This document shows, in pieces, positions 13,641-39,551 of a stretch of DNA of 41,560 bases. Numbering within the stretch: position 1 is the stretch's first letter; every line of letters starts with the position of its first letter. The notes below the pieces were generated by a model that had not been told where the DNA came from, did no database searches, and was given only the letters and a program-made list of their open reading frames with translations. The translations under genes were made by a program, and so were the position numbers. Source of the DNA: Lachnospiraceae bacterium (GTDB lineage: Bacteria; Bacillota; Clostridia; Lachnospirales; Lachnospiraceae); NCBI GenBank assembly GCA_024405115.1, contig JAKSPD010000013.1, positions 1-41,560 of the forward strand, given 5' to 3'.

Positions 13641-13702
13641 TTTACCCTCCTGAATTTTCTGAAATAAACCATTTACTGTCTTAACGTTACGAACCGCCGA
13701 TT

Positions 13703-13731
13703 ATTTTATAGGAATATATAAAAATTAGCAA
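13703..13731 (-). promoter_or_regulatory. Predicted promoter of the 852-residue surface protein gene
   Basis: Minus strand: -35 TTGCTA (13726-13731), 17-bp spacer, -10 TAAAAT (13703-13708), in an AT-rich stretch. The leader to the ATG at 13640 would be about 55 nt. Confidence 0.5.
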
Positions 13732-13818
13732 GTATTTTCAGAAAAATCATATTGCACCATTCTATGTTTTTTGAGTAAACTGATTTGCTTTTATTCTGCA
13801 GCATGTATTTAAATAATA

Positions 13819-13844
13819 AGAGGCCCTCCTTTCGGAAAGCCTCT
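13819..13844 (-). terminator. Rho-independent terminator of the 1062-residue surface protein gene
   Basis: Minus strand stem AGAGGC/GCCTCT (13839-13844 with 13819-13824), extended by an inner TTTCC/GGAAAG pairing, followed by a T-rich TTATTATTT tail. It lies about 85 nt after the stop at 13928. Confidence 0.7.
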
Positions 13845-13927
13845 CTTTGATATATACATTGTTTAAGCTCTTTGAATTCCCTTTGTTCAGGATCCGTCTG
13901 CTCTTGTGTCCATACACACGGCACAGG

Positions 13928-16900
13928 TTACCTTCCGGTCCATGCTCCCGCTGCGTCTATCTCATAACCGTCAGGTGTTACTCCCGGTCCGATCAGGCAT
14001 GCTCCGAGTGTGCCGTCCTTTGTCAGATTCAGATAATACCACTTTCCGTCTATCAGCTGCCATCCTGTGAGCATGATTCCGTTCCCGTCAAACCGGAACC
14101 AGTCGGCTTCGTGCTGCCCGGCATGAGCATACGGATTACGGATGTATGCCCAGGTATTACAGAAAAGCTGTGTCGTTGTATAATGCCATGCTCCCGTATC
14201 ATCCTGTGACCAGTGTCCGTTCGTTACAGGATTTCCCCATGTACCGGTAAAGAGTGCATTCCCCTTTACGGTGCTTGCCGGTCCTCCGCCCGACGATGAT
14301 CCTCCGCCCGAACTGCTGTTTTTGCTCCACTTTGCATAAACTGTTGTATCTGTGCCGATACCTGCATTAAAATCAAATACTTTTGTGCATGCCGTATCTG
14401 CATACCACCCTGCAAAGCTGTATCCGCTTCTGTTCGGTGAGGTGGGCTTTACTGCCTTTTCACCCGATGCCACCGTCTGTGCGGCTACTTCACTTCCGCC
14501 CATGGAATCAAATTTTACGGTATAAAGGTACTTTTTAAAATTTGCCTTTACCGTTACGTTCTTTAACGGCATCTCGAACTTATTATCGACAATGGTCACG
14601 TCATCCGACTCCCAGTAATCAAAGCGGTAACCTTCATATGGCATAGCCGTCAGTTCCACAACAGCCCCCGGATTTACGCTGACTGTTCCTCCCCCGTCTG
14701 TAACTACTATTACAGAATAATCGATCTTTTCGAATACTGCCTTTACCGTGACATTTCCGATGGGCATCTCAAACTTATCGTCTGCTACAGTTACATCCGA
14801 AGACTCCCAGCGGTCAAAGCGATAGCCCGGGTCCGGTGTGGCCGTAAGTGCCACCTTCGTTCCCATGACTGCTCCCGCCGGATCCGCTGATGCGGTTCCC
14901 TTTCCTTCTTTTTCCACTGTCACGGTGTATTCGATCTTCTCAAATACCGCGTTAACCGTTACGTTTTTATAAGGCATCTTAAACGCATTATCAACAACGG
15001 TCACGTCATCCGACTCCCAGCGGTCAAAGCGGTAGCCGGCAAACGGTACAGGCTCAAGGATCACGGTGTCTCCTGTCGTCACATTGACGCTTCCGCCGCC
15101 GTTTGTTGTTACCGTGACGGTATAACTGATCTTTTCAAAAACCGCTATGACCGTAACATTCTTTGCGGGCATCGTAAACGTTCCGTCATCGGCCACGGTT
15201 ACATCTGCCGATTTCCAGCCTGCAAACGTATAGCCTTCATCAGGTGAAGCCGTAAGTGTAACTGTTGTTCCCATAGCAGCACTTTCATGATCTGCGCTTA
15301 CTGTTCCGCCTCCTGCCGTGATGGCATTCACGGTATATGATTCTTCCTTAAATACTGCCTTTACAGAAACATTCTTTGCGGGCATTGCGAACTTATTATT
15401 TACCGGGATCACGTCTGACGATTCCCAGTGGTCAAAACGATAACCTTCGTCCGGAACAGCTGTAAGCGTTACCTCTGTTTCCAGGACTGCTGTAGAAGGA
15501 TCGGCATTTGCCGTTCCGTTCCCTCCGCTGCTGACATTTACAGCATACTCTGTTTTGCCAAAAACAGCCTTTACCGCAACATCCTTTGACGGCATCGTGA
15601 AGGTTCCGTCATCGGCTACGGTCACGTCATCCGATTCCCATTTAAGGAGACGATATCCTGCAGCGGGAACCGCCGTAAGTGTTACGGTCTCATCCTTTGA
15701 TGCAGATGCAGGGTCGGCACTTGCTGTTCCGTTTCCGTCATCAGTAACTGTTATCTTGTGCGGGAATTTCCACCCGTTGGGAATAAAGCTGCAATCAGTC
15801 GATGAATCATCATCTCTTCTGTCAGGAAGCGTAGACGGTCCATAGAAGGTTCCTTCAGATGCAGCGCCGCGAAGCCAGTTGGTTGTCCAAATGCCTTCAT
15901 TCCAGTCACTGAATCCCACTTTTACTTCTTTTAATCTGCTGCATTTATCGAACATCTGTGCGTAGCAGTATTCTGCCAGTGTCTCTGCGGGAAGCTCTGG
16001 CGCTGTTTCCAGGGCACCGCAGTTTGCGAACATCTGCCGGTAGCATTGATATGCCAATGTCATTGCGGGAAGCTCTGGCGCCACTGTCAGACTTGTGCAG
16101 TTAAAAAACATTTGCAAATAGCAGTCTTTTGCCAATGTCTTTGCGGGAAGCTCTGGCGCTGTTTCCAGGGCACCGCAGTTTGCGAACATCTGCCAGTAGC
16201 ATTGATATGCCAATGTCTTTGCGGGAAGTTCAGGGGCTGTTGTAAGGTTGCTGCAGCCTTCAAACATAAACGCATAACAAGACTCTCCGAGAACCGTCGG
16301 CCGAACAACCGGTGCTATCTTAAGGCTGCTGCAGCCATAGAACATAGAAGCGCAGCTGTTTTTTCCAAGCTTTACATCGGGGATCACCAGGTTTTTCGCG
16401 CTTATTAGATTGTCATTCCCCCAAAACATCTGATTAAAGAAACAGGCTGGAATGTCAACGCTTCCTTCCGTTCTGATAAGTGTAGTGATATCCCCACCAA
16501 CGCTGTAGTCTTTATCGTTTTCAGCTATTACCCGGAATGAGGCTTCAAATTTTTCCAATTCAGCTATTTCATCATTATGAACACCGCTCGGTGCCTGGAA
16601 ATATACCCTGTCTCCTTTCTCTGCTAACACTATAGGAGTTAGAGAAGTCTCATCGACTGGATGTTCTGCCGCAAGGAGATAATTATCCCAGTAGATTCCG
16701 TCCATTGAAAACTCAAGCTTCAGCCCTGATGCCGGGTTATCCCCATACCCTCGCGTTCTTATGGATACACACGTTTGATCCTCTTCAGCCTGTATATAAA
16801 AATATTTAGGTTCTCCTTCTCCAAGAAGCGCGCCATCCTTCAGTGCTTCCTTTTCCGCGGTCTCCTCTGCGGAAATGATCTCTTCGACTGCTTCCACTGC

Positions 16901-17116
16901 CTCGATCTCTTCCAAAGAACCTATCTCTTCAATAGACTCGGTTTCTTCCACGGAGCCTGTTCCTTCCGCAGATCCGGTCACTTCTGCGGTATCTGCTGTT
17001 TCAAATACCTCAGAATTAACTGCCGTTTCCACATTTTCAACGGCATAGACAGGCATTGCCGCCGTCAATACCATTACCGCGGAAAGCAGAACCGCTAATT
17101 TCTTTTTTAAATTCAT
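13928..17116 (-). CDS. Secreted repeat-rich surface protein, longer paralogue
   Basis: 1062 residues with the same plan as the product of 11082-13640. It has a signal peptide (to PVYA); an almost identical Glu-rich spacer; an unrelated-looking domain (about 95-205); an expanded LRR-like block of 26-residue units (CY.QMF..C..L..APELPA.TLA, about six units, residues about 230-420); six InlB-type modules instead of four; one Flg_new repeat; a Gly/Ser linker; and the TGWQLIDGKWYYLN C-terminus. I take the ATG at 17116, with GGAGG 5 nt upstream, over a TTG four codons earlier that overlaps the ribosome site. Surface-exposed, probably wall-bound through the C-terminal module. The pair arose by duplication followed by repeat gain or loss and local homogenisation. 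Confidence 0.85.
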   Translation of the reverse strand: MNLKKKLAVLLSAVMVLTAAMPVYAVENVETAVNSEVFETADTAEVTGSAEGTGSVEETESIEEIGSLEEIEAVEAVEEIISAEETAEKEALKDGALLGEGEPKYFYIQAEEDQTCVSIRTRGYGDNPASGLKLEFSMDGIYWDNYLLAAEHPVDETSLTPIVLAEKGDRVYFQAPSGVHNDEIAELEKFEASFRVIAENDKDYSVGGDITTLIRTEGSVDIPACFFNQMFWGNDNLISAKNLVIPDVKLGKNSCASMFYGCSSLKIAPVVRPTVLGESCYAFMFEGCSNLTTAPELPAKTLAYQCYWQMFANCGALETAPELPAKTLAKDCYLQMFFNCTSLTVAPELPAMTLAYQCYRQMFANCGALETAPELPAETLAEYCYAQMFDKCSRLKEVKVGFSDWNEGIWTTNWLRGAASEGTFYGPSTLPDRRDDDSSTDCSFIPNGWKFPHKITVTDDGNGTASADPASASKDETVTLTAVPAAGYRLLKWESDDVTVADDGTFTMPSKDVAVKAVFGKTEYAVNVSSGGNGTANADPSTAVLETEVTLTAVPDEGYRFDHWESSDVIPVNNKFAMPAKNVSVKAVFKEESYTVNAITAGGGTVSADHESAAMGTTVTLTASPDEGYTFAGWKSADVTVADDGTFTMPAKNVTVIAVFEKISYTVTVTTNGGGSVNVTTGDTVILEPVPFAGYRFDRWESDDVTVVDNAFKMPYKNVTVNAVFEKIEYTVTVEKEGKGTASADPAGAVMGTKVALTATPDPGYRFDRWESSDVTVADDKFEMPIGNVTVKAVFEKIDYSVIVVTDGGGTVSVNPGAVVELTAMPYEGYRFDYWESDDVTIVDNKFEMPLKNVTVKANFKKYLYTVKFDSMGGSEVAAQTVASGEKAVKPTSPNRSGYSFAGWYADTACTKVFDFNAGIGTDTTVYAKWSKNSSSGGGSSSGGGPASTVKGNALFTGTWGNPVTNGHWSQDDTGAWHYTTTQLFCNTWAYIRNPYAHAGQHEADWFRFDGNGIMLTGWQLIDGKWYYLNLTKDGTLGACLIGPGVTPDGYEIDAAGAWTGR
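15204..15748 (-). repeat. 545-bp identical tract, copy 2
   Basis: Identical partner of 11953-12497. Sequence on both sides diverges quickly (synonymous and nonsynonymous differences), so identity over this block alone points to recent gene conversion or recombination between the two surface-protein genes. Confidence 0.9.
15950..16260 (-). repeat. Tandem 78-nt coding repeats (26-residue LRR-like units)
   Basis: Within the 1062-residue surface protein. Two units, around 15985-16060 and 16140-16215, are nearly identical at DNA level (shared string GCACCGCAGTTTGCGAACAT). This indicates recent unit duplication and potential for length variation. Confidence 0.75.
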
Positions 17117-17185
17117 ATCCACCTCCAAAAATGATGATCAATATTATTCAACGAGAAATGATTATTGCCTCTGTCCAAAAATACT

Positions 17186-29217: not shown

Positions 29218-29246
29218 TTGACAACCACTCTTTCCAATGATACAAT
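29218..29246 (+). promoter_or_regulatory. Predicted promoter of the XRE regulator-aromatic biosynthesis unit
   Basis: Plus strand: -35 TTGACA (29218-29223, perfect), 17-bp spacer, -10 TACAAT (29241-29246). It is the best promoter match in the region; transcription would start near 29253, about 100 nt before the regulator ATG. I see no equally good promoter between here and the DAHP synthase gene. Confidence 0.75.
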
Positions 29247-29255
29247 CGGCCACGT

Positions 29256-29328
29256 TAGGAAATATATTACTTGCTTCTACGCGTATTTATAAGTAATATA
29301 TTTCTCCTAGACAGGAACCTCTCCCTGT
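29256..29328 (+). promoter_or_regulatory. Long 5'-end hairpin plus second hairpin in the XRE leader
   Basis: TAGGAAATATATTACTT (29256-29272) pairs with AAGTAATATATTTCTCCTA (29291-29309) in a 17-bp stem with a 2-nt bulge and an 18-nt loop. A smaller ACAGG/CCTGT stem (29311-29328) follows. The long stem would start within a few nt of the predicted transcript 5' end. No U-tract follows, so it is not a terminator; 5' mRNA protection or a dyad operator for the regulator are the main options. Confidence 0.6.
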
Positions 29329-29354: not shown

Positions 29355-29972
29355 ATGAATAAAGAAGAACAGTCAGTTCAGAAAAAACGATTCTCCCAGA
29401 TATGGCTTACCTCCCGTACTGACGCGGGAAAAACGCAGGAATTCATGGCCATGGGCTTAGGTGTTTCAACTAAGACCGTCCAGAACTGGGAAAACGGTAT
29501 AACTTCGCCGGACCTTTTCATGGGAAGTGAATGGTTCAGGGTCCTGGGCGTGAATCCACTACCTTACTACCTCTCCTATCTATTCCCTGATCTGTTCGAA
29601 GGCCTTTCCCCTGAAAATGATGATGACGCCATTGATCAGGCGCTGATGGCACTGATCAGAAACTCGACGGCAGTTGAAAAAAGGGAGCTCCTCTTCCTTA
29701 TGGCCGGCAGACACGGAAGTCCGTGGTATTCGCTTCTTCAGCTGTTTACGGCCCACTGCCACACGAGTATGCAGTCGAGAGTTACCGCTGCACGCTCTGT
29801 ACTGGACAGTTATGAGATGGACGCGGCTGCCGGAAGACTTGTCTGCCCGTCAAACGTAAAGCCCGACATCGCGTTTTTGAAAAACGCGATTGAAGAAGGA
29901 AAAAAAGCCGTTATCGCCGGAAAAGCCGGCTATACGAATGTTATAGAAACAAACGGAGTTAAAAAAACATGA
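29355..29972 (+). CDS. XRE-type helix-turn-helix regulator preceding the aromatic operon
   Basis: 205 residues. The N-terminal XRE/Cro-type helix-turn-helix (about residues 10-60) reads TQEFMAMGLGVSTKTVQNWENG. The rest is a helical, uncharacterised domain containing GRHGSPWYSLLQLFTAHCH, with no known ligand-binding domain that I can name. The start at 29355 is chosen for AAGAAGG 6 nt upstream; the reading frame is open further upstream into the leader hairpin, without a ribosome site. Its stop overlaps the leader-peptide ATG (ATGA), and the only strong promoter before the aromatic genes is upstream of this gene. I infer that it is the first gene of the aromatic biosynthesis transcript and may regulate it or itself. 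Confidence 0.8.
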   Translation: MNKEEQSVQKKRFSQIWLTSRTDAGKTQEFMAMGLGVSTKTVQNWENGITSPDLFMGSEWFRVLGVNPLPYYLSYLFPDLFEGLSPENDDDAIDQALMALIRNSTAVEKRELLFLMAGRHGSPWYSLLQLFTAHCHTSMQSRVTAARSVLDSYEMDAAAGRLVCPSNVKPDIAFLKNAIEEGKKAVIAGKAGYTNVIETNGVKKT

Positions 29973-30061
29973 AAAACATTATCCTCATCGCAAAGATTTA
30001 TTACTGGTTCAGCTTTACCAAGAAATTCGGTAAGGTCGGTTTGCGATGCACGGAACTTTAA
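29969..30061 (+). CDS. Aromatic-rich leader peptide of the aromatic amino acid operon (30 residues)
   Basis: A 30-codon ORF whose ATG overlaps the XRE stop (ATGA) and which has GGAG 10 nt upstream. Residues 11-16 are YYWFSF, and Phe20 follows, so six of 30 residues are aromatic and all three aromatic amino acids are represented. It ends 20 nt before a strong terminator that precedes the DAHP synthase gene. This is the classical form of an attenuator leader peptide, like those of trp and phe operons of enterobacteria. A ribosome slowed at codons 11-16 by lack of charged tRNA would cover stem strand 1 and free strand 2. No family match is expected for such a peptide; the assignment rests on context and RNA pairing. 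Confidence 0.8.
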   Translation: MKNIILIAKIYYWFSFTKKFGKVGLRCTEL

Positions 30062-30119
30062 ACATGTAAAAGACACATGGGGGGTGCGGCTCAGATCGAT
30101 CTGGCCGCACTCCTTTTTT
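29986..30119 (+). promoter_or_regulatory. Ribosome-mediated transcription attenuator (1:2, 2:3, 3:4 stems)
   Basis: Three mutually exclusive pairings are readable. 1:2: CATCGCAAA (29986-29994) with TTTGCGATG (30040-30048), 9 bp perfect, enclosing the aromatic codons, with an inner CTTTACC/GGTAAGG stem (30013-30019 with 30029-30035). 2:3: 30036-30051 with 30084-30099, 14 of 16 positions paired (11 Watson-Crick, 3 G-U). 3:4: the terminator at 30081-30113 plus U-tract. Region 2 also lies within reach of a ribosome sitting at the leader stop codon (30059-30061). Stalling at Tyr/Trp/Phe codons would favour 2:3 and read-through; completing the leader would favour termination. RNA structure is inferred by eye. 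Confidence 0.75.
30081..30119 (+). terminator. Attenuator terminator upstream of aroF
   Basis: Long GC-rich stem: GGGGTGCGGC plus CAGATC pairs with GATCTG plus GCCGCACTCC (30081-30097 with 30098-30113, one bulged T at 30091, minimal loop), then six T residues (30114-30119). The DAHP synthase ATG is only 25 nt further on, leaving no room for a promoter between them. Confidence 0.9.
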
Positions 30120-30143
30120 CTTGCTTTAAACGGAGGAATATAA

Positions 30144-31145
30144 ATGATAGTTGTTCTTAAACCAGATGCGGACTGTGAAAAAAGGGACCAGCTTATTGGC
30201 TGGCTTCGGGGCATGGGGCTCGACGTCCACATTTCAACCGGAAGATTCCAGACGGTGCTTGGGCTTATCGGTGACACGGCCAGCGTTGACATGGACCTTA
30301 TCGGCAGCCTTGAAATGGTGGATTCCGTAAAAAGGGTTTCCGAAACCTTTAAAAGATGCAACCGGAAGTTTCATCCTGAGGATACCGTCGTATCCGTCGG
30401 GAACAAAAAGATAGGCGGCGGCAGTTTCTGTATGATTGCAGGCCCCTGTTCCGTGGAATCAGAGGAGCAGATAGTCTCCATTGCAAAGGCCGTAAAGGCG
30501 GCCGGCGCCGATATCCTCCGGGGCGGCGCATTTAAGCCGCGTACCTCCCCCTATGATTTCCAGGGTCTCAAGGAAGAAGGGCTGAGGCTTCTAAAGACGG
30601 CCCGTGACGAAACGGGGCTTCCCATCGTGACTGAGATTTTAAGTGTATCGGACCTTGAACTCTTTACGGATATCGACGTCCTTCAGGTGGGTGCCAGGAA
30701 CATGCAGAACTTTGACCTCCTTAAGGAGCTGGGGCATCTAAATAAGCCCGTACTTTTAAAACGCGGACTGGCCAATACCTTAAAGGAGCTTCTCATGAGT
30801 GCGGAGTACATCATGGCTAACGGAAACGAGCAGGTAATCTTATGTGAACGCGGCATCCGCACCTACAGCGACTACCTGAGAAACACCCTGGATCTTTCCG
30901 CCGTTCCTATGCTGCATGAGCTCTCGCACCTTCCGGTCATTGTTGACCCGAGCCACGCTACCGGCATGGCACGCATGGTTCCTCCCATGGCGATGGCTGC
31001 TGCCGCATGCGGTTGCGACGGACTCATCATCGAGGTACATAACGACCCTCCGCACGCGCTGTGTGACGGTGCCCAGTCGCTGAAGCCTTCGGATTATGAA
31101 AAGCTGGCCGGAAAGATATCAGCAGTCAGGGAGGCGGCATCATGA
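30144..31145 (+). CDS. aroF: 3-deoxy-7-phosphoheptulonate synthase (DAHP synthase) with N-terminal ferredoxin-like regulatory domain
   Basis: 333 residues; condenses phosphoenolpyruvate and erythrose 4-phosphate, the first step of the shikimate pathway. The N-terminal 65-75 residues form the ferredoxin-like regulatory domain of the Thermotoga-type enzyme. The barrel follows with AGPCSVES, GADILRGGAFKPRTSPYDFQG, VTEILS, QVGARNMQNF, KPVLLKRG and VDPSHATG, including the metal and substrate residues. In that enzyme class the N-terminal domain confers feedback inhibition by Tyr or Phe. The start has GGAGG 9 nt upstream, directly after the attenuator, and the stop overlaps the tyrA start (ATGA). 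First biosynthetic gene of the operon. Confidence 0.96.
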   Translation: MIVVLKPDADCEKRDQLIGWLRGMGLDVHISTGRFQTVLGLIGDTASVDMDLIGSLEMVDSVKRVSETFKRCNRKFHPEDTVVSVGNKKIGGGSFCMIAGPCSVESEEQIVSIAKAVKAAGADILRGGAFKPRTSPYDFQGLKEEGLRLLKTARDETGLPIVTEILSVSDLELFTDIDVLQVGARNMQNFDLLKELGHLNKPVLLKRGLANTLKELLMSAEYIMANGNEQVILCERGIRTYSDYLRNTLDLSAVPMLHELSHLPVIVDPSHATGMARMVPPMAMAAAACGCDGLIIEVHNDPPHALCDGAQSLKPSDYEKLAGKISAVREAAS

Positions 31146-31963
31146 CGGTAGGAATCGTGGGCCTTGGCCTTATCGGCGGGTCATTCGCAAAAGCTTTCCG
31201 CAGAAACGGCTGCATCGTCCTTGCAAGGGACACGGATTCCTCCACGATGTGGTTTGCGAAACTTAACGGAATCATCGACGGGGAACTTCATAAGGAGCAT
31301 CTTAAGGACTGTGACCTTATCCTTATCTGCACCTATCCAAAGGCCGCCATCGAATTCATGGAGGAAAACGCGGCGCATATCGGCGCAAGGCCGCTTGTCA
31401 TGGACTGCTGCGGAACAAAAAGAAAAATGGTGAAAAAGGGAACTGAACTTTCCGAAAAATACGGTTTTACATATGCAGGCGGTCACCCCATGGCGGGGAC
31501 GCAGTATTCCGGAATAAAACACTCCTCTGCTGACATGTTTACAGGCGCGCCCATGGTCATTGTCTCGTGTAATCTTTCCGTGATTACACGGGCAAGAAAA
31601 CTTCTGGAGCCGTGCGGGTTCTCACAGATAACTGCCACGACTGCAGAGGATCACGACAGGCTGATTGCCTATACCTCGCAGCTGGCACATGTGGTTTCCA
31701 GCGCATATGTAAAAAGTCCCACCGTAAGAAAACATAAGGGCATTTCCGCGGGAAGCTACAGGGACATGACTCGCGTTGCCTGCCTGAGTCCGGAGCTTTG
31801 GACTGAGTTATGCATGGATAACAGGGAACATCTTCTTTTCGAACTGGACACACTGATCAGAAACCTGAAGGCCTACAGGACAGCTCTTGTCAAGGAAGAT
31901 TCAAGTCACCTTATGGCACTTTTTGCCAAAGGCAGTGAAATTAAAAAGGAGGTTGACGGATAA
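31142..31963 (+). CDS. tyrA: Prephenate dehydrogenase
   Basis: 273 residues; oxidatively decarboxylates prephenate to 4-hydroxyphenylpyruvate, the tyrosine branch. The Rossmann motif VGIVGLGLIGGSFAKAFRR opens the protein, with the acidic LARD end of the second strand suggesting NAD preference. The GGHPMAGTQYSGIKHS segment holds the catalytic histidine region, and the helical C-terminal dimer domain follows. There is no C-terminal ACT domain, so feedback control by tyrosine may be lacking or lie elsewhere. It overlaps aroF by 4 nt (ATGA), indicating coupled translation, and is followed by aroB after 1 nt. Confidence 0.94.
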   Translation: MTVGIVGLGLIGGSFAKAFRRNGCIVLARDTDSSTMWFAKLNGIIDGELHKEHLKDCDLILICTYPKAAIEFMEENAAHIGARPLVMDCCGTKRKMVKKGTELSEKYGFTYAGGHPMAGTQYSGIKHSSADMFTGAPMVIVSCNLSVITRARKLLEPCGFSQITATTAEDHDRLIAYTSQLAHVVSSAYVKSPTVRKHKGISAGSYRDMTRVACLSPELWTELCMDNREHLLFELDTLIRNLKAYRTALVKEDSSHLMALFAKGSEIKKEVDG

Positions 31964-31964
31964 G

Positions 31965-33017
31965 ATGCAGACAATAAACATCAATACCTCAAAACCCTAC
32001 AGCGTACTTATCGGGTCAGGACTTCTCCACGGTTCTGTCCATTCGGAAAAAATCCGGGACAGAAATGTCATGGTAGTATCCGACGACACGGTTTATGCCT
32101 TATACGGAAAGCCGCTCTGCAGCCTTTTAAAAAGAGGGGGCGCCCATATCTTCACGTTTGTCTTCCCTCACGGAGAGCAGAGCAAGAACCTTTCCACATA
32201 CGGAAAACTCCTTGAGGAAATGTGCCGCGTAAGGATGACAAGAAACGACCTTTTAGTGGCGCTTGGCGGCGGTGTTACGGGTGACATGGCCGGATTTGCG
32301 GCAGGAACATACCAGCGCGGCATCGACTTTGCGCAGATACCGACCACCCTTTTAAGCGCAGTTGACTCTTCCGTGGGCGGAAAGACAGGCGTGGACCTTG
32401 AATCAGGAAAAAACATGGTGGGAGTGTTTCATCAGCCCTCGCATGTCTTATGTGACACTGATACACTTCTGACGCTGCCCGAAGATGAATACAAAAACGG
32501 CTGCGCTGAAATCATTAAATACGCAATGATCGGAAGCCGCCGGCTGTTTCAAAGCATTAAAGAAGTCCCTGTATCAGGTCAGTACGAAAATGTGATAAGT
32601 GAATGCGTGACCATGAAGAGGGATCTTGTTGAAAAGGATGAGTTTGACAATGGACCGCGTATGCTCCTTAACTTCGGCCACACTGTGGGTCATGCGGTGG
32701 AGACCTGCAGCGGCTATAAAGTGCCCCACGGTAAGGCTGTTGCCATAGGAATGGCCGTCATTACCAGGGCGGCTGAAGTTTCAGGGCTCTGCAGTAAGGA
32801 TACATGTGATAAACTCCTTGACCTTCTTGCTTCTTACGGGCTTCCGACAGATACCTCCTGTGACCTAAGCATGCTCAGTGCCGCAATAATGACTGACAAG
32901 AAGAGCCGGGGCGGGAAGCTCACCCTGGTGGTTCCAAGAGAGATCGGAAGCTGCGAACTTATGGAAATTCCAAAAAGTTCCGTCCCGGAATGGCTTAAAG
33001 CAGGAGGAGTCAGATGA
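31965..33017 (+). CDS. aroB: 3-dehydroquinate synthase
   Basis: 350 residues; converts DAHP to 3-dehydroquinate with NAD and a divalent metal. Family motifs read: GGGVTGDMAGFAAGTYQRGI, QIPTTLLSAVDSSVGGKTGV, GKNMVGVFHQP, CAEIIKYAMI, NFGHTVGHAVE and HGKAVAIGM, giving the Glu and two His metal ligands. I start at 31965, one base after the tyrA stop with AAAAAGGAGG upstream; an earlier in-frame ATG at 31887 lies inside tyrA and would add unrelated residues. Its stop overlaps the aroA start by 4 nt. Confidence 0.96.
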   Translation: MQTININTSKPYSVLIGSGLLHGSVHSEKIRDRNVMVVSDDTVYALYGKPLCSLLKRGGAHIFTFVFPHGEQSKNLSTYGKLLEEMCRVRMTRNDLLVALGGGVTGDMAGFAAGTYQRGIDFAQIPTTLLSAVDSSVGGKTGVDLESGKNMVGVFHQPSHVLCDTDTLLTLPEDEYKNGCAEIIKYAMIGSRRLFQSIKEVPVSGQYENVISECVTMKRDLVEKDEFDNGPRMLLNFGHTVGHAVETCSGYKVPHGKAVAIGMAVITRAAEVSGLCSKDTCDKLLDLLASYGLPTDTSCDLSMLSAAIMTDKKSRGGKLTLVVPREIGSCELMEIPKSSVPEWLKAGGVR

Positions 33018-34270
33018 ACACGCACATAAGCTGCGGTCAGAGAAGCGGGGTACTGACCGTCCCGGCATCAAAATCCGAAGCACACAGGCTGCTTATCTGT
33101 TCCGCCCTTTCAGGCGAAGCCTGTTCAATTAAATGCAGCGGTGTCTCAAAAGACATTCTGGCTACGGTAAGCTGCCTTTCCTCGATGGGTGCCGGCATAA
33201 GTATTTCAGATAACGGATTCATCTCTGTCACCCCGGGAAAGCCTTCCAAAGACATGGTCTGCAGACTTTCCTGCAATGAAAGCGGGTCAACGCTTCGGTT
33301 TCTTCTTCCCGTAGCAGGCGCACTGGGACTAAATGCAGAATTTCATATGGCGGAAGGCCTTTCAAAAAGGCCGGTGGGGGAACTTATCGGATGTCTTAAT
33401 GCACATGGTGTAAAGATCACAAAAAACGGAAACCTGCTGACTTTAAAAGGACAGCTTACCGCAGGCGAGTACCGCATCCACGGAAACATCTCCTCACAGT
33501 ATGTTTCAGGACTTCTGTTTGCCCTGCCGCTCTTAAACGGTGACAGCACCCTTACAGTTACGGAAAACACGGAGTCTGCTGACTACATCCTGATGACTGA
33601 ACATGCGCTTAAACGTTCAGGAATCTCTTTTGAAAAAGAGGATAACCTTTACCGGATACCCGGGAATCAGCAGTACCATCTTCAGAAAAACGTGGTAATC
33701 GAGTCCGACTGGTCCAATGCCGCATTCTTTCTTTCAATGGGTGCTCTGTCAGATAAGGGGGTTGCCGTAAACGGCCTTTCGCTTTCTTCTGCACAGGGTG
33801 ACCGGAGGATTCTCGAAATCCTCTGCAGAATGGGAGCCCTGGTCACGACAACGCCCGGCAGTATCCTCGTTAAGCGCGGAATCATTAAGGCAGTAACGAT
33901 CGACGCCTCTTCCATCCCGGACCTGGTTCCGGTAATCAGTGTGCTTTGTGCGTGTGCAGAAGGCACCAGCGTGATCACAAACGCGGGACGCCTCCGCCTT
34001 AAGGAATCAGACCGGCTTGCAACCACCGCCTGCATGCTTTCAGCACTCGGAGCAGACATCAAAGAAACTCCTGATGGTCTTACTATAAAGGGAAAGCCGT
34101 ACCTTTCGGGCGGCACCGTAAATGCCGCCAATGACCACAGGATTGCCATGGCTGCGGCTACGGCGGCGGGTTTCTGCAAAAATGACGTATTTGTGGAAGG
34201 AAGCGAATGTGTTGAAAAATCATATCCCGATTTCTGGAAGCATCTAAAAGTGCTGGAGGTGAACAAATGA
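33014..34270 (+). CDS. aroA: 3-phosphoshikimate 1-carboxyvinyltransferase (EPSP synthase)
   Basis: 418 residues; transfers the enolpyruvyl group from PEP to shikimate 3-phosphate. Motifs: PASKSEAHRLLICSALS at the N-terminus, ESGSTLRFLLPVAG, SSQYVSGLLFALP, SDWSNAAFFL, DLVPVISVLCA, LRLKESDRLATTA and NDHRIAMAAA. The motif after the glycine string reads NESGSTLRF where class I enzymes have GNAGTxxR, a difference seen in class II-like forms. That may affect sensitivity to glyphosate-type inhibitors, which is only an inference. Overlaps of 4 nt occur with aroB upstream and aroC downstream. Confidence 0.95.
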   Translation: MNTHISCGQRSGVLTVPASKSEAHRLLICSALSGEACSIKCSGVSKDILATVSCLSSMGAGISISDNGFISVTPGKPSKDMVCRLSCNESGSTLRFLLPVAGALGLNAEFHMAEGLSKRPVGELIGCLNAHGVKITKNGNLLTLKGQLTAGEYRIHGNISSQYVSGLLFALPLLNGDSTLTVTENTESADYILMTEHALKRSGISFEKEDNLYRIPGNQQYHLQKNVVIESDWSNAAFFLSMGALSDKGVAVNGLSLSSAQGDRRILEILCRMGALVTTTPGSILVKRGIIKAVTIDASSIPDLVPVISVLCACAEGTSVITNAGRLRLKESDRLATTACMLSALGADIKETPDGLTIKGKPYLSGGTVNAANDHRIAMAAATAAGFCKNDVFVEGSECVEKSYPDFWKHLKVLEVNK

Positions 34271-35358
34271 GCAGTTCTTACGGAGAAAATATAAAACTTA
34301 CCATCTTCGGCCAGAGCCATTCACCTGCTATAGGAATGACCCTCGAGGGCATTCCTGCCGGGGAATCCATATGTATGGAAACGCTTAAACGTTTCCTTTC
34401 AAGAAGGGCTCCCGGAAAAAACGACTGGTCAACAAAAAGGAAGGAAGCTGATGAACCCGAGTTCTTATGCGGTTTTATCAATAATACCACCTGCGGGGCG
34501 CCCATCACCGCAATAATCAGAAACACTGACACACGTAAAGGTGATTATGAAAGCTTTTCATACATTCCCCGGCCGGGACACGCGGACTATACGGCCTTTG
34601 TCAAATACGGCGGATTTGAGGACCATTCCGGGGGCGGTCACTTTTCCGGCAGGCTGACTGCACCTTTATGCATCGCCGGAGGCATCTGTAAACAGCTTCT
34701 TATGCGTGAGGGGATAAATATCATTTCGAGGATAAAGTCGATTGGCCCGCTGGAGGATTCCGGAGATTTAGACCGTTCCACTGCGGAAAAGGACTTTCCT
34801 GTAATTGATGACGGGCAGGGCAAGCTGATGCAGGAATACATCCTTTGGGCTAAAAGCCGCGGGGACTCCGTGGGAGGAACCATTGAGTGTGTTGCCACCG
34901 GTCTTCCGGCGGGCCTTGGGGACCCTATGTTTGACGGAATGGAAAACCGCATATCACAGATCGTGTTCGGTATCCCTGCTATTAAGGGAATCGAATTCGG
35001 GGCAGGCTTTGCGGCAGCAAAAATGACCGGAAGCCGGAATAACGACCAGTTTTTTATTGAAAACGGTACGGTACGGACACTTACCAATCATTCCGGAGGA
35101 ATCCTGGGAGGCATCACTAACGGAATGCCGCTTTGTTTCAGGGTAGCCGTGAAACCCACACCTTCCATTGCCGTTTCACAGAAAAGCTTTGATGAAACCA
35201 CCCTGAAGGAAACAGAGCTTCTGATTCCGGGAAGGCATGATCCGTGTATTGTCCCACGCGCCGTGCCGTGCGTGGAGGCAGCCGCGGCGGTTGCCATATA
35301 TGATGCACTTTTAGGGCGCAGAAAGGAACTAAATGGAAATTCAGGATATTCGAAATGA
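34267..35358 (+). CDS. aroC: Chorismate synthase
   Basis: 363 residues; FMNH2-dependent 1,4-elimination of phosphate from EPSP to give chorismate. Family signatures are FGQSHSPAIGMTLEGIPAG, RRAPGKNDWSTKRKE, RPGHADYTAFVKYGG, SGGGHFSGRLTAP, SRGDSVGGTIECVATGLPAGLGDP and the C-terminal RHDPCIVPRAVPCVEAA. It overlaps aroA by 4 nt (ATGA) and runs 26 nt into pheA, which starts within its coding region. This is the last common step before the aromatic branches. Confidence 0.96.
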   Translation: MSSSYGENIKLTIFGQSHSPAIGMTLEGIPAGESICMETLKRFLSRRAPGKNDWSTKRKEADEPEFLCGFINNTTCGAPITAIIRNTDTRKGDYESFSYIPRPGHADYTAFVKYGGFEDHSGGGHFSGRLTAPLCIAGGICKQLLMREGINIISRIKSIGPLEDSGDLDRSTAEKDFPVIDDGQGKLMQEYILWAKSRGDSVGGTIECVATGLPAGLGDPMFDGMENRISQIVFGIPAIKGIEFGAGFAAAKMTGSRNNDQFFIENGTVRTLTNHSGGILGGITNGMPLCFRVAVKPTPSIAVSQKSFDETTLKETELLIPGRHDPCIVPRAVPCVEAAAAVAIYDALLGRRKELNGNSGYSK

Positions 35359-36478
35359 GATAGATGCAATTGACAGAGAACTGGTAAATCTGTTTGCAAG
35401 GCGCATGGACATCTGCTCCGAAATCGCATCATTAAAAAAAGAAAAGCACCTTCCTGTATACGATCCCGAAAGGGAACGCAGGAAACTTAAGGAGATAGCT
35501 GACATGTCCCCTTCCGAACTCAGGGATTATTCCCTCCTGTTATATTCACTCATTTTTGAGCTTAGCCGCAGCTACCAGAACAGGCTTATCGGCGAAGCCG
35601 GAGAAATCGCGGAAAAAATACAGAGGGCTGTTGAAAACACGGATAAGCTGTTTCCCGAATCGGCGACAGTCGCATGTCAGGGAGTGGAAGGATCAAATTC
35701 GCAGGCGGCATGCGACAGGCTGTTTCGCCATGCAAACATCATGTATTTTTCAGACTTTGAGTCAGTTTTTTCCGCAATTGAAAAGGGGCTGTGCCGATAC
35801 GGCGTCGTCCCCGTGGAAAACAGCACCGCAGGCTCAGTAAACTCCGTATATGACCTGATGACGCACCACAATTTTTCAATCGTACGGAGCATAAGGATGA
35901 AGGTGGAGCATAATCTCCTCACAAAACCGGGCGTCTCCCTTTCAGACATACGCGAGGTCTATTCACATGAACAGGCAATAAGCCAGTGCTCTGACTTCCT
36001 CCGTACGCTGAAAAACGTAAAGGTCATTCCCTGTGAAAACACTGCCGTGGCGGCAAAAATGGTGGCTGAATCAGAAAGGAACGACATCGCGGCGCTTGCT
36101 TCAAGGTCCTGCATGAAATACTACGGCCTTAAGTGCATTGAAAGTTCAGTCCAGAACACCCGGAACAACTATACCCGCTTCATCTGTATCTCAAAGGATA
36201 CGGAAATATATCCCGGGGCTGACAGGACAAGCCTCATGCTGACCCTCCCGCATGAGCCCGGGTCCCTCTACAGGGTTCTTGCGAAGCTCAATGCGCTCAA
36301 TATCAACCTGAATAAACTTGAAAGCAGGCCTCTCCCAGGGAGGGAATTTGAGTTCATGTTCTATTTTGACATCGAAACTCCCGTATACTCCAAAAGACTT
36401 CCGGAACTTCTTTCCGAACTTCCTGATGCATGCGAGGAGTTTCATTACTTAGGCAGCTACAGCGAGGTGCCCTCATGA
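35333..36478 (+). CDS. pheA: Bifunctional chorismate mutase/prephenate dehydratase (P-protein)
   Basis: 381 residues with three parts. An AroQ-class chorismate mutase (about 1-90, with IRNEIDAIDRELVNLFARR and VYDPERERRKL); a prephenate dehydratase (about 105-285, with ACQGVEGSNSQAA, GVVPVENSTAGSVNSVYDLM, SHEQAISQC and NNYTRFI); and an ACT domain (about 295-375, with LPHEPGSLYRVLAKLNALNIN and the ESRP effector motif). It turns chorismate into prephenate and then phenylpyruvate; the ACT domain usually mediates phenylalanine inhibition. The mutase half also supplies prephenate to TyrA. The prephenate dehydratase TRD-type catalytic Thr is seen in NYTRF. AAGGA precedes the ATG inside aroC. Confidence 0.95.
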   Translation: MEIQDIRNEIDAIDRELVNLFARRMDICSEIASLKKEKHLPVYDPERERRKLKEIADMSPSELRDYSLLLYSLIFELSRSYQNRLIGEAGEIAEKIQRAVENTDKLFPESATVACQGVEGSNSQAACDRLFRHANIMYFSDFESVFSAIEKGLCRYGVVPVENSTAGSVNSVYDLMTHHNFSIVRSIRMKVEHNLLTKPGVSLSDIREVYSHEQAISQCSDFLRTLKNVKVIPCENTAVAAKMVAESERNDIAALASRSCMKYYGLKCIESSVQNTRNNYTRFICISKDTEIYPGADRTSLMLTLPHEPGSLYRVLAKLNALNINLNKLESRPLPGREFEFMFYFDIETPVYSKRLPELLSELPDACEEFHYLGSYSEVPS

Positions 36479-37725
36479 ACAGATACGGATTACTCGGTGA
36501 AAAACTCACACACAGCTTTTCGCCGCTCATACACAAAATGCTCGGAAATTACGAATACGGGCTTTATGAGAAAACATGCTCAGAGGTTGAGAATTTTCTC
36601 AAAAACGGGGACTTTAAAGGGCTCAACGTGACCATCCCCTATAAAAAGACAGTTATCCCGTACCTTTCATCATTAAGTGACACGGCAAAATATACCGGAA
36701 GCGTCAATACCATAATCCGCACGGATGACGGCAGCCTCTACGGCGATAACACGGATGTATACGGCTTTTTAAGGATGGTTGGGCACTCCGGGATATCCGT
36801 GGATGGGAAAAAGGCGCTTGTGCTTGGAAGCGGCGGGGCTTCCGCTTCCGTGGTCAGTGCCCTCATGGCACTTAATGCAGAACCTCATATCATCTCAAGA
36901 AACGGTGAGAATAACTATGAAAACCTGTATCTTCATTATGATGCGGAAATCATTGTAAATACAACGCCCCTTGGAATGTATCCCGATACGGGAGTCTCCC
37001 CTGTGGATCTTTCACACTTTAAAAAACTAAGTGGTGTTTTTGACCTTATCTATAATCCTGCGCGTACCGCTCTTTTGCTTCAGGCAGAGAAACTCGGGAT
37101 TCCGTATGAAAACGGTCTTTATATGCTCGTGGCACAGGCAAAAAAAAGCGCGGAACTGTTTATGGGACATGAGATTTCTGATATGGAGACAGACAGGATA
37201 TACCGGACCCTTAACCTCTCCCTTCAGAACATCATCCTGATAGGAATGCCGGGAGCCGGAAAAAGCACAGTTGCCAAAGAAATTGAAGAACTTACGGGAA
37301 GAAAAAGCCTGGATTCGGATAATGAGATAACAAAAAGACTCGGGAACACCCCAAAGGAGCTTTTGGAAAAGGTTGGGGAACCGGCTTTCCGCATGATCGA
37401 ATCTGACATCATAAGGGATCTCGGGAAAAAGTCAGGCGTGATCATATCCACGGGCGGAGGCGTGGTAGTAAATGACAGCAACTACGACCTTCTGCATCAG
37501 AACGGAGTCATCGTCTGGCTTCAGAGAAGCCTTGACCGGCTTTCGTACGATGACAGGCCCCTCCTAAAAAAAAGCGGTGCAAAGGAACTGTACCAAAAAA
37601 GGAAGGATCGTTATCAGAGGTTTGCGGACGCAGTAGTTACAAACGGCGACGATGTGAAGGAATCGGCGCTGGACGTATTAAAGGCAGTTTACGGAGGTAT
37701 TTTATATGAAGTTACTGGTTATTAA
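36475..37725 (+). CDS. aroEK: Fused shikimate dehydrogenase-shikimate kinase
   Basis: 416 residues carrying two enzymes. Residues about 1-245 are shikimate dehydrogenase: GLLGEKLTHSFSPLIHKML, GLNVTIPYKKTVIPYL, GDNTDVYGFLRM, a Rossmann LVLGSGGASASVV and NTTPLGMYP. Residues about 250-416 are shikimate kinase: Walker A GMPGAGKSTVAKE, DSDNEIT, STGGGVV and DDRPLL. Together they convert 3-dehydroshikimate to shikimate and then shikimate 3-phosphate. The start is at 36475, overlapping the pheA stop (ATGA); an earlier in-frame ATG at 36430 lies inside pheA and adds an unrelated segment. The gene overlaps aroQ by 20 nt. Confidence 0.94.
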   Translation: MNRYGLLGEKLTHSFSPLIHKMLGNYEYGLYEKTCSEVENFLKNGDFKGLNVTIPYKKTVIPYLSSLSDTAKYTGSVNTIIRTDDGSLYGDNTDVYGFLRMVGHSGISVDGKKALVLGSGGASASVVSALMALNAEPHIISRNGENNYENLYLHYDAEIIVNTTPLGMYPDTGVSPVDLSHFKKLSGVFDLIYNPARTALLLQAEKLGIPYENGLYMLVAQAKKSAELFMGHEISDMETDRIYRTLNLSLQNIILIGMPGAGKSTVAKEIEELTGRKSLDSDNEITKRLGNTPKELLEKVGEPAFRMIESDIIRDLGKKSGVIISTGGGVVVNDSNYDLLHQNGVIVWLQRSLDRLSYDDRPLLKKSGAKELYQKRKDRYQRFADAVVTNGDDVKESALDVLKAVYGGILYEVTGY

Positions 37726-38158
37726 CGGACCAAACATAAATTTTCTGGGTGTCAGGGAGCCTGATATCTACGGAAAGCAGAATTACGAGGCATTGCTTAC
37801 ATTCATCCAGAGAGCCGCGGAGGCTGAAGGCGTGGAGGTCGAATGCTACCAGTCGAACCATGAGGGGGATATCGTGGATAAGATCCAGTCAGCTTACGGA
37901 AAGTTCGACGGCATCGTGATCAATCCTGCCGCATATACCCACACAAGTGTCGCGATTCTTGACGCCCTTAAGGCCGTCGCGATTCCTGCGGTCGAGGTTC
38001 ATATTTCAAAGGTTTCAGAACGCGAGGACTTCAGGCAGATATCATACGCCGGAATGGCCTGCGTGAAAACATACGCGGGGCTTGGTTTTGAAGGTTACCG
38101 GCAGGCCATCCTGTATCTGAAGGCACTTCTTCAGGATACATGTGAAGCCGCAGGGTGA
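37706..38158 (+). CDS. aroQ: Type II 3-dehydroquinate dehydratase
   Basis: 150 residues; dehydrates 3-dehydroquinate to 3-dehydroshikimate. Full set of type II motifs: INGPNINFLGVREPDIYG with the catalytic Tyr lid, YQSNHEGDIVDKI, NPAAYTHTSVAILDAL, EVHISKVSEREDFRQISY. Dodecameric cytosolic enzyme in other species. It begins 20 nt inside the aroEK coding region with GGAGG upstream and completes the pathway in this operon. Confidence 0.96.
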   Translation: MKLLVINGPNINFLGVREPDIYGKQNYEALLTFIQRAAEAEGVEVECYQSNHEGDIVDKIQSAYGKFDGIVINPAAYTHTSVAILDALKAVAIPAVEVHISKVSEREDFRQISYAGMACVKTYAGLGFEGYRQAILYLKALLQDTCEAAG

Positions 38159-38180
38159 GTCATTGAAAGGAGAAAATAAA

Positions 38181-39551
38181 ATGAAAGACATCCCTTACAA
38201 AATCTATCTTAACGAAGACGAGATGCCAAAGGCATGGTACAACCTGAGGGCGGACATGAAGAATAAGCCCGCACCGCTTCTTAACCCGGGCACATTAAAG
38301 CCGATGAAGCCGGAGGAACTCTCGCCCGTTTTCTGTGAAGAGCTTATCAGACAGGAGCTTGATAATGAAACCCCTTATTTCCGGATTCCCGATGAGATCC
38401 TGGACTTCTACAGGATGTACCGTCCGTCACCGCTTGTACGTGCATACTGTCTTGAAAAGGCACTCGATACACCCGCAAAGATCTACTATAAGTTTGAGGG
38501 AAACAATACAAGCGGCTCCCACAAGCTTAATTCCGCCATTGCACAGGCCTACTATGCAAAGAAGCAGGGACTTAAGGGAGTGACTACCGAAACAGGTGCA
38601 GGCCAGTGGGGAACAGCGCTTTCCATGGCATGCTCATATCTGGGACTTGACTGCAGAGTATACATGGTAAAGGTATCCTATGAGCAGAAGCCGTTCCGCC
38701 GCGAAGTTATGAGGACCTACGGCGCATCGGTAACACCCTCCCCCTCTATGACCACAGAAGTGGGAAAGAGGATCCTTGCCGCTCATCCCGGAACCACAGG
38801 AAGCCTTGGATGCGCTATCTCTGAGGCAGTTGAAGCAGCCACCACAACAGAAGGCTACAGATATGTTCTCGGAAGCGTGCTCAACCAGGTGCTCCTTCAC
38901 CAGAGCATAATCGGTCTTGAGACCGAAGCAGCACTTAAAAAGTATGATATTCACCCCGACATCATCATCGGATGCGCCGGAGGCGGATCAAACCTCGGAG
39001 GACTCATTGCACCGTTCATGCGTGATAAGATCAAGGGACTCGAAGATTACAGGATCATCGCAGTAGAGCCGCAGTCCTGCCCCAGCTTCACACGCGGTAA
39101 ATACGCCTACGACTTCTGTGACACGGGAATGGTATGCCCGCTCGCAAAAATGTACACACTCGGAAGCAGCTTCATCCCCGCACCCAACCATGCCGGAGGC
39201 CTGAGATATCACGGAATGAGCTCCACCCTTTCACAGCTTTACGATGACGGGCTCATGGAGGCTGTTGCAGTACCGCAGACAAAGGTATTTGAGGCAGCAG
39301 AATTCTTTGCAAGGACGGAGGGCATCCTTCCTGCTCCTGAAAGCTCCCACGCAATCAGGGTGGCCGTCGACGAGGCAGTTAAATGCCGCGAAACCGGCGA
39401 GGAAAAAACCATCGTATTCGGACTTACCGGTACAGGTTACTTCGACATGGTCGCTTATGAAAAATTCCATGACGGTAAAATGGATGACTACGTTCCTACC
39501 GATGAGGAACTTTCAGTAAGTTTCAGTAAACTTCCGTCAGTCTCTGTTTGA
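38181..39551 (+). CDS. trpB2: TrpB2-type PLP-dependent tryptophan synthase beta-like protein
   Basis: 456 residues, matching the TrpB2 branch of tryptophan synthase beta subunits, which is longer than TrpB1 and works without a dedicated TrpA. The PLP lysine lies in SGSHKLNSA, with ETGAGQWGTALSMA and the phosphate loop CAGGGSNLGG downstream. It likely joins serine and indole to make tryptophan, or salvages indole. No other trp genes are present, so it adds a tryptophan link to an operon otherwise for Phe and Tyr. The ATG at 38181 has AAAGGAG 8 nt upstream; an in-frame ATG at 38142 overlaps aroQ. Only 22 nt separate it from aroQ with no terminator, so it is probably co-transcribed. Confidence 0.88.
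   Translation: MKDIPYKIYLNEDEMPKAWYNLRADMKNKPAPLLNPGTLKPMKPEELSPVFCEELIRQELDNETPYFRIPDEILDFYRMYRPSPLVRAYCLEKALDTPAKIYYKFEGNNTSGSHKLNSAIAQAYYAKKQGLKGVTTETGAGQWGTALSMACSYLGLDCRVYMVKVSYEQKPFRREVMRTYGASVTPSPSMTTEVGKRILAAHPGTTGSLGCAISEAVEAATTTEGYRYVLGSVLNQVLLHQSIIGLETEAALKKYDIHPDIIIGCAGGGSNLGGLIAPFMRDKIKGLEDYRIIAVEPQSCPSFTRGKYAYDFCDTGMVCPLAKMYTLGSSFIPAPNHAGGLRYHGMSSTLSQLYDDGLMEAVAVPQTKVFEAAEFFARTEGILPAPESSHAIRVAVDEAVKCRETGEEKTIVFGLTGTGYFDMVAYEKFHDGKMDDYVPTDEELSVSFSKLPSVSV

Follow-up and report, generated by a model that had tools for sequence, protein, structure and literature searches.

The window analysed here, a stretch of 41,560 nucleotides from a Lachnospiraceae assembly, contains a short open reading frame (ORF) rich in aromatic codons between a regulator gene and the gene for DAHP synthase (DAHPS). 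The question is whether this ORF and the hairpin behind it control the genes downstream and, if so, by what kind of device. The original prediction likened the region to the trp and phe attenuators of enterobacteria and proposed that a single leader peptide senses all three aromatic amino acids on behalf of a complete aromatic operon. Judging from the sequence and its relatives, it is highly likely that a conserved ribosome-mediated transcription attenuator of the trp/phe type controls this aro operon. The trp/phe logic was recovered in the form of a conserved in-frame leader, covarying alternative helices, a terminator, and promoters upstream of the leader in many relatives. Because so many relatives have the same arrangement, a classical control device is very probably real.

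Leader ORF, RNA helices and operon of the window

The leader ORF encodes MKNIILIAKIYYWFSFTKKFGKVGLRCTEL and ends with TAA. Its ATG (29969-29971) overlaps the TGA (29970-29972) of the preceding HTH_3 gene as ATGA, and GGAG, a candidate ribosome-binding site, lies 10 nt on the 5′ side of the ATG. The overlap and the five aromatic residues in six codons were thus as originally described; in 3000 shuffles of the 400 nt upstream, a short ORF had such a cluster 7 times. On re-reading the sequence, the coordinates of the three claimed pairings and of the terminator with its six U residues also agreed, and the gap between the U run and the DAHPS ATG was counted as 24 nt instead of the 25 nt first given.

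Segment 1 of the putative switch, CATCGCAAA at 29986-29994, is perfectly complementary to TTTGCGATG at 30040-30048 within segment 2, and the longer 1:2 duplex reaches -23.2 kcal/mol (p = 0.005 against shuffles). For the antiterminator, 14 of 16 positions pair between 30036-30051 and 30084-30099, three of them as G-U; the duplex of the window taken alone was not significant (p = 0.09 against shuffled segment 2). The terminator hairpin spans 30081-30113 and is followed by six T at 30114-30119.

Folding of 29970-30125 gave -53.2 kcal/mol (z = -5.2), and none of 200 shuffles was as low. Folding under constraints that mimic a stalled ribosome, as suggested with the original prediction, gave the antiterminator when the ribosome stood at codons 12 to 16 and segment 4 was still unmade (-18.8 kcal/mol; -22.1 at codon 11). 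Without a ribosome, the 1:2 helix formed (-26.7 kcal/mol), and with the ribosome at the stop codon, segment 2 was covered and the terminator formed. On the full-length RNA the terminator won in every case tried, including the minimum fold with a stalled ribosome, and therefore the switch would depend on co-transcriptional timing. The trp attenuator likewise depends on timing during transcription.

According to the proposed mechanism, the leader peptide would be translated while RNA polymerase makes the leader RNA. When charged tRNA-Tyr or tRNA-Phe (here perhaps also tRNA-Trp) is scarce, the ribosome would stall in YYWFSF and cover segment 1; segment 2 would then pair with segment 3, the terminator would be blocked and the operon would be read. 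When charged tRNA is plentiful, the ribosome would reach the stop codon (30059-30061) and cover segment 2, the 3:4 hairpin would form and transcription would end at the U run. If the leader is not translated at all, the 1:2 helix would form, and so would the terminator. Translation itself, stalling, read-through, the response to charged tRNA and the counting of Trp are what we infer from the sequence.

Table 1. Features of the probable attenuator locus and the downstream operon, in window positions
Feature	Position	Strand	Evidence
Sigma-70-like promoter before the XRE gene, TTGACA-17-TACAAT	29218..29246	+	11/12 matches
Perfect inverted repeat of 14 nt (spacing 18 nt), a possible operator or 5′ UTR hairpin	29259..29304	.	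read from sequence
XRE/HTH_3 regulator gene, start codon uncertain	29355..29972	+	PF01381, 6e-8
Leader ORF, 30 codons, then TAA	29969..30061	+	read from sequence
Whole attenuator, match of covariance model R1	29978..30118	+	42.3 bits, E 5e-6
Segment 1, partner of 30040-30048 (pre-emptor, 1:2)	29986..29994	+	sequence; duplex energy
Putative regulatory codons Tyr-Tyr-Trp-Phe-Ser-Phe (YYWFSF)	29999..30016	+	sequence; Tyr/Phe-rich runs at the corresponding place in relatives
Segment 2, pairs with segment 1 or, as antiterminator, with segment 3	30036..30051	+	duplex and fold computation
Segment 3, 5′ arm plus loop of the terminator; pairs with segment 2 in the antiterminator	30081..30099	+	sequence; covariation in relatives
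Intrinsic terminator (3:4) with six U	30081..30119	+	-25.9 kcal/mol; covariation in relatives
DAHP synthase, first structural gene	30144..31145	+	domain search
Prephenate dehydrogenase (tyrA)	31142..31963	+	domain search
3-Dehydroquinate synthase (aroB), start codon uncertain	31887..33017	+	domain search
EPSP synthase (aroA)	33014..34270	+	domain search
Chorismate synthase (aroC)	34267..35358	+	domain search
Chorismate mutase-prephenate dehydratase (pheA, CM-PDT)	35333..36478	+	domain search
Shikimate dehydrogenase-shikimate kinase fusion (aroE-aroK)	36430..37725	+	aroE models matched below curated cut-offs
Type II dehydroquinase (aroQ)	37706..38158	+	domain search
TrpB-like gene (trpB2), last of the overlapping series	38142..39551	+	TIGR01415, 583 bits (cut-off 519)

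The operon had been called complete. DAHPS, tyrA, aroB, aroA, aroC, pheA, aroE-aroK and aroQ are indeed all present, and the domain search of the nine operon genes returned no aminotransferase and, apart from the closing TrpB-like gene, no gene of the Trp branch, so that the word needs qualifying. The TrpB-like gene was absent from the original prediction. The assembly that holds the window measures 1.97 Mb and is 78.5% complete.

Conservation of leader and helices in relatives

Upstream regions of 98 DAHPS genes made up the close set, 20 from the same genus (own genome included) and 78 from named loci. Since the named loci were taken from the best 80 of 577 by similarity to the DAHPS of the window, the leader count in this set is biased to relatives. 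The 80 are mostly metagenome-assembled genomes whose titles read Clostridia, Lachnospiraceae, Oscillospiraceae or similar, a few being labelled oddly; L021 and L022, and L059 and L087 (no usable upstream sequence), were left out before counting. Four loci titled Thermoguttaceae, Treponemataceae or Lentisphaerae (L032, L066, L083 and L092) encode a DAHPS 64-81% identical to that of the window behind similar leaders, and these records are possibly mislabelled or mixed assemblies. In three related loci (L034, L036 and L044) an FMN riboswitch is located about 1 kb upstream of DAHPS.

Of these upstream regions, 89 of the 98 contain a short ORF with five or more aromatic codons in a stretch of eight, as compared with 3.1% of 1960 dinucleotide shuffles and 5/98 on the reverse strand; MKAFAFASNYYYFFTGSLR (L040) and MKNSNCTANKIWYWYYFAMNDSKVSLQCTEL (L023) are examples. 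Nine regions fell below the threshold, and in six of them (L018, L019, L020, L029, L074 and L082) no leader was seen and the locus was dropped before the terminator search. A hairpin with a T-rich tail was returned for all 92 remaining leader loci, and 90 were kept as terminators after rejection by hand of L026 (-2.2 kcal/mol) and L031 (-13.1 kcal/mol, irregular).

For the wider distribution, an even draw of 147 genomes of the class gave a longer list of matches from which 110 regions (30 loci and 80 stretches) were taken, and 109 of these DAHPS upstream regions were examined, with L123 left out. Leaders were called in 51, versus 8 on the reverse strand. Three calls (L107, L144 and L177) were withdrawn as T-boxes and three (L110, L130 and L208) for want of a good terminator, leaving leader plus terminator in 45 of the 109 regions, from 45 genomes and 23 family groups.

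In 82 of 90 close loci, the start with the best Shine-Dalgarno match upstream of the aromatic run had the reading frame of the run, and the remaining 8 were spread over the other two frames; in the class sample it was in frame in 44 of the 45 leaders. An in-frame start is predicted by translation of the leader, not by RNA pairing alone. Leader conservation and reading frame together led us to reject a chance ORF. A leader of this kind also occurs in a cultured relative, Eubacterium pyruvativorans i6 (L099).

The alternative helices were also found to be widespread. Among the 90 close loci, the 1:2 duplex was stronger than in shuffles (p ≤ 0.05) in 62 and the 2:3 duplex in 40, where 4.5 were expected, and the mean 2:3 pairing was -15.1 kcal/mol with the own partner and -12.2 kcal/mol with swapped partners. 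In the class sample, 2:3 was significant in 22 of the 45 leaders and 1:2 in 20.

Covariation was determined in an alignment of 41 loci without the window (A1), for which 53 candidates had been picked by a segment-2 motif, plus two names by hand, and 12 left out. The three highest-ranking helices of a scan blind to the proposed pairings were the terminator, the 1:2 helix and the antiterminator. Cells changed on both sides of the helix numbered 83 for the terminator (24.0 in shuffled alignments), 46 for the pre-emptor (24.8) and 26 for the antiterminator (10.4), and in each case this was reached by 0 of 500 shuffles; sliding the partner by 1 to 3 columns sharply lowered the pairing of all three helices. 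The number of pairs and the number of pair types went beyond all shuffles for the terminator only, not for the antiterminator or the pre-emptor, and RNAalifold predicted the terminator alone. In A1 a single column is common to the inner 1:2 helix and the 2:3 core; what makes 1:2 and 2:3 exclusive there is the outer 1:2 helix, with 69% of its cells paired. Complementarity between segments 2 and 3 is kept despite differing sequence classes, for example GTGTTTTGCTGC with GCAGGAAAACAC in the genus of the window and CGGTTTGGCTG with CAGCCGAACCG in Oscillibacter. All three helices proposed originally thus covary in relatives.

A covariance model, R1, was built from A1 with the window held out. It matched 36 of 57 sources outside A1 at E ≤ 1e-3, the window among them, and 29978-30118 was its sole match in the own assembly at E ≤ 0.001. 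Among 196 class genomes, R1 matched in at least 18, a lower bound because stricter filters were used, and at least 10 of the 21 places lie directly before a listed DAHPS.

Promoters, the upstream regulator and rival readings

The consensus scan found no promoter match of 8/12 or better in 29840-29968, and the promoter ahead of the regulator gene was the nearest good match upstream of the leader returned by the scans. From this result and the ATGA overlap, the leader appears to be co-transcribed with the XRE gene and perhaps translationally coupled to it. The relatives have a different layout: a sigma-70 site of at least 10/12 immediately precedes the leader in 53 of 90 (2.2 in shuffles), and one of at least 9/12 in 59 of 90 close loci, with 31 lacking such a site.

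It had been argued that the space between terminator and DAHPS leaves no room for a promoter. No match was found there in the window by the consensus scan, and a site of at least 9/12 occurred in 1 of 90 close loci, in agreement with that view, although the latter count is weak, as a promoter needs 28 nt and only 50 of the 90 gaps offer that length.

The XRE gene had no tblastn match in the 101 other loci compared (0 to 4 kb upstream of each), and in the genus only short HTH matches were seen, in 5 of 24 genomes. Among the loci examined, its position between promoter and leader is confined to the own genome, where the regulator gene in front of the leader seems to be a new one. The regulator as part of a conserved unit was ruled out by the absence of matches in the 101 loci. 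With its strong promoter and inverted repeat, the gene may be autoregulated, and the ATGA may couple its translation to that of the leader.

The most serious rival reading accepts attenuation as real and makes it secondary, initiation control by the XRE regulator at 29218-29304 being dominant in this genome. The strong promoter, the perfect inverted repeat and the direct linkage of the regulator gene fit such control; no counterpart was found in the relatives that bear the attenuator. We regard this dominance as rather unlikely.

A second reading retains the RNA switch and changes the sensor: the nascent leader peptide would sense a free aromatic amino acid and arrest the ribosome, as in the case of TnaC. 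Seven class-sample leaders (L109, L119, L145, L149, L150, L178 and L205) have a common longer peptide motif, about FYFSAGYxFCxK, which is more than a plain codon run needs. Among close relatives, however, neither the length nor the order of the run is constant, Tyr and Phe replace each other and each is written with both of its synonymous codons. Moreover, expression of a biosynthetic operon would be expected to increase on starvation, in line with codon stalling. Peptide-sensing arrest is accordingly improbable as compared with stalling at the codons.

Less probable still is that the hairpin merely terminates the XRE gene and the ORF with its aromatic codons arose by chance. The leader does start inside the XRE stop codon and the terminator does come after the leader, but leader, helices and terminator are conserved where no relative of the XRE gene is found, and the window has no promoter match in the stretch from terminator to DAHPS; on these grounds we rejected the reading.

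T-boxes, the Trp codon and known systems

In Firmicutes, amino-acid genes are usually said to be under the control of T-boxes or proteins. Such control is stated for their aminoacyl-tRNA synthetase genes (PMC1262725). T-boxes at gathering score precede DAHPS in 15 of the 109 class-sample regions (12 of the 58 leader-negative ones and the three withdrawn calls), and in 49 of the 109 neither leader plus terminator nor T-box was found by the tests used. T-boxes such as those of L137, L142, L143 and L107 are an alternative device at the same gene.

The Rfam scan of the class sample covered all 58 leader-negative regions and 42 of the 51 calls, which is 36 of the 45 final leaders; L128, L132, L133, L166, L175, L192, L203, L204 and L212 stood outside it. 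Rfam 15 returned nothing at gathering score on these 36 leaders, only tRNAs and one T-box on the other strand, and the scan of 20 further class-sample leader loci added no T-box. The T-box core motif, shown by 11 of the 15 T-box loci, was present in 0 of the 45 leader loci.

That the window itself holds a tRNA-binding T-box or another metabolite RNA is the least probable reading, close to negligible: T-boxes do occur before DAHPS in the class and a match below gathering score precedes trpB in this genome, but none of the Rfam 15 families (4227 models, leader-peptide families included) reached gathering score over the leader in the window or in 15 close loci, the T-box matches of the own genome are all on other contigs, and known RNA families were rejected at that score.

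The claim that all three aromatic amino acids are sensed is drawn from the single Trp codon in the run of the window, which most relatives lack: W occurs in the run of 8 of 90 close leaders and 8 of 45 class-sample leaders, and the idea that Trp codons are general in these leaders was rejected. That the leader responds to charged tRNA, and to all three amino acids, is a prediction, most of all where Trp is concerned. In the window, trpB2 belongs to the operon, and the L024 contig carries it at about equal spacing; both leaders have W. L023 has W as well and its contig, at 6 kb, is too short to place trpB2, and in three further W leaders (L041, L045 and L048) trpB2 is on another contig, as judged from contig numbers. 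A link between the Trp codon and trpB2 in the operon is only suggestive.

On another contig of the own genome (C17; L103, 1501-1751), a T-box match precedes a separate trpB at 67 bits, against a gathering score of 93, with a specifier that is apparently UGG (Trp), as placed by eye on the alignment. Apparently, trp is regulated through a T-box and aro through a leader peptide in one and the same genome.

The kind of attenuator is already known. In E. coli trpL-trp and pheL-pheA, a leader ORF with regulatory codons, alternative 1:2, 2:3 and 3:4 helices and an intrinsic terminator precede the first gene. The locus of the window is like them in all of these elements, and differs in the phylum, in the lack of an Rfam family match at gathering score, in its mixed Tyr/Phe (in some leaders Trp) runs and in controlling a DAHPS-led shikimate operon. 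trpL and pheL are named as ribosome-mediated attenuators in the available text of PMC11802643, which also describes the aroR-aroF attenuator of Corynebacterium glutamicum (Neshat 2014), where transcription rises when Phe is limiting and does not respond to Tyr. That system likewise has a leader peptide (there Phe-Tyr-Phe) before an operon with DAHP synthase; unlike the window, it belongs to Actinobacteria, has a shorter aromatic run and is not Tyr-responsive, a comparison made by description only (PMC11802643).

In Acholeplasma, the uORFC-13-1 motif before aroF consists of a uORF with at least one Phe codon followed by a terminator, and attenuation has been proposed (PMC8632094). The order of uORF, terminator and DAHP synthase is that of the window; the motif differs in having 24 representatives, from Acholeplasma and environmental sequences only, and a U run coding for at least one Phe, according to the text available (PMC8632094). 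A 2019 survey of five genomes, Clostridium novyi among them, shows two candidate Phe/Tyr uORFs on shikimate genes (PMC6429828, legend of Fig. 6b). Phe/Tyr codons and shikimate genes are shared with the window, and these uORFs may well be members of its attenuator family; the accessible text names no genome, gene, mechanism or distribution for them. For histidine genes, leader attenuators of the classical leader-peptide type are reported from Firmicutes, including Eubacteriales, where T-boxes act in others (PMC2965389, PMC9413887); these resemble the window in mechanism and differ in the genes controlled.

The novelty first supposed is thus reduced. A leader attenuator at DAHP synthase was known in Corynebacterium and predicted in Acholeplasma, and Phe/Tyr uORFs on shikimate genes were shown in 2019, whereas for the attenuator mechanism and its spread through Clostridia no description was found in the literature searched, with subscription papers mostly outside its scope.

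As a tentative interpretation, which we would put at clearly less than even, the Tyr/Phe attenuator may have controlled the entry into aromatic synthesis throughout the class Clostridia since early times and may have changed places with T-boxes at the same gene during evolution; in the window it would have become a Tyr/Trp/Phe sensor matched to an operon that gained trpB2, on one transcript with a new XRE regulator and translationally coupled to it.

The occurrence of attenuator (45/109) and T-box (15/109) at the same gene offers a natural system for how one control device replaces another. In addition, the attenuator points to many small ORFs that annotation easily overlooks. It could become the basis of an Rfam family, and it allows a prediction of when the Clostridia carrying it make aromatic amino acids.

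Two observations concern other parts of the window. The minus strand at 11082-17128 encodes two large proteins next to each other that have InlB-like B-repeats and choline-binding repeats, and three neighbouring minus-strand ORFs of equal length (157 aa) at 1425-2918 are possibly tandem copies.
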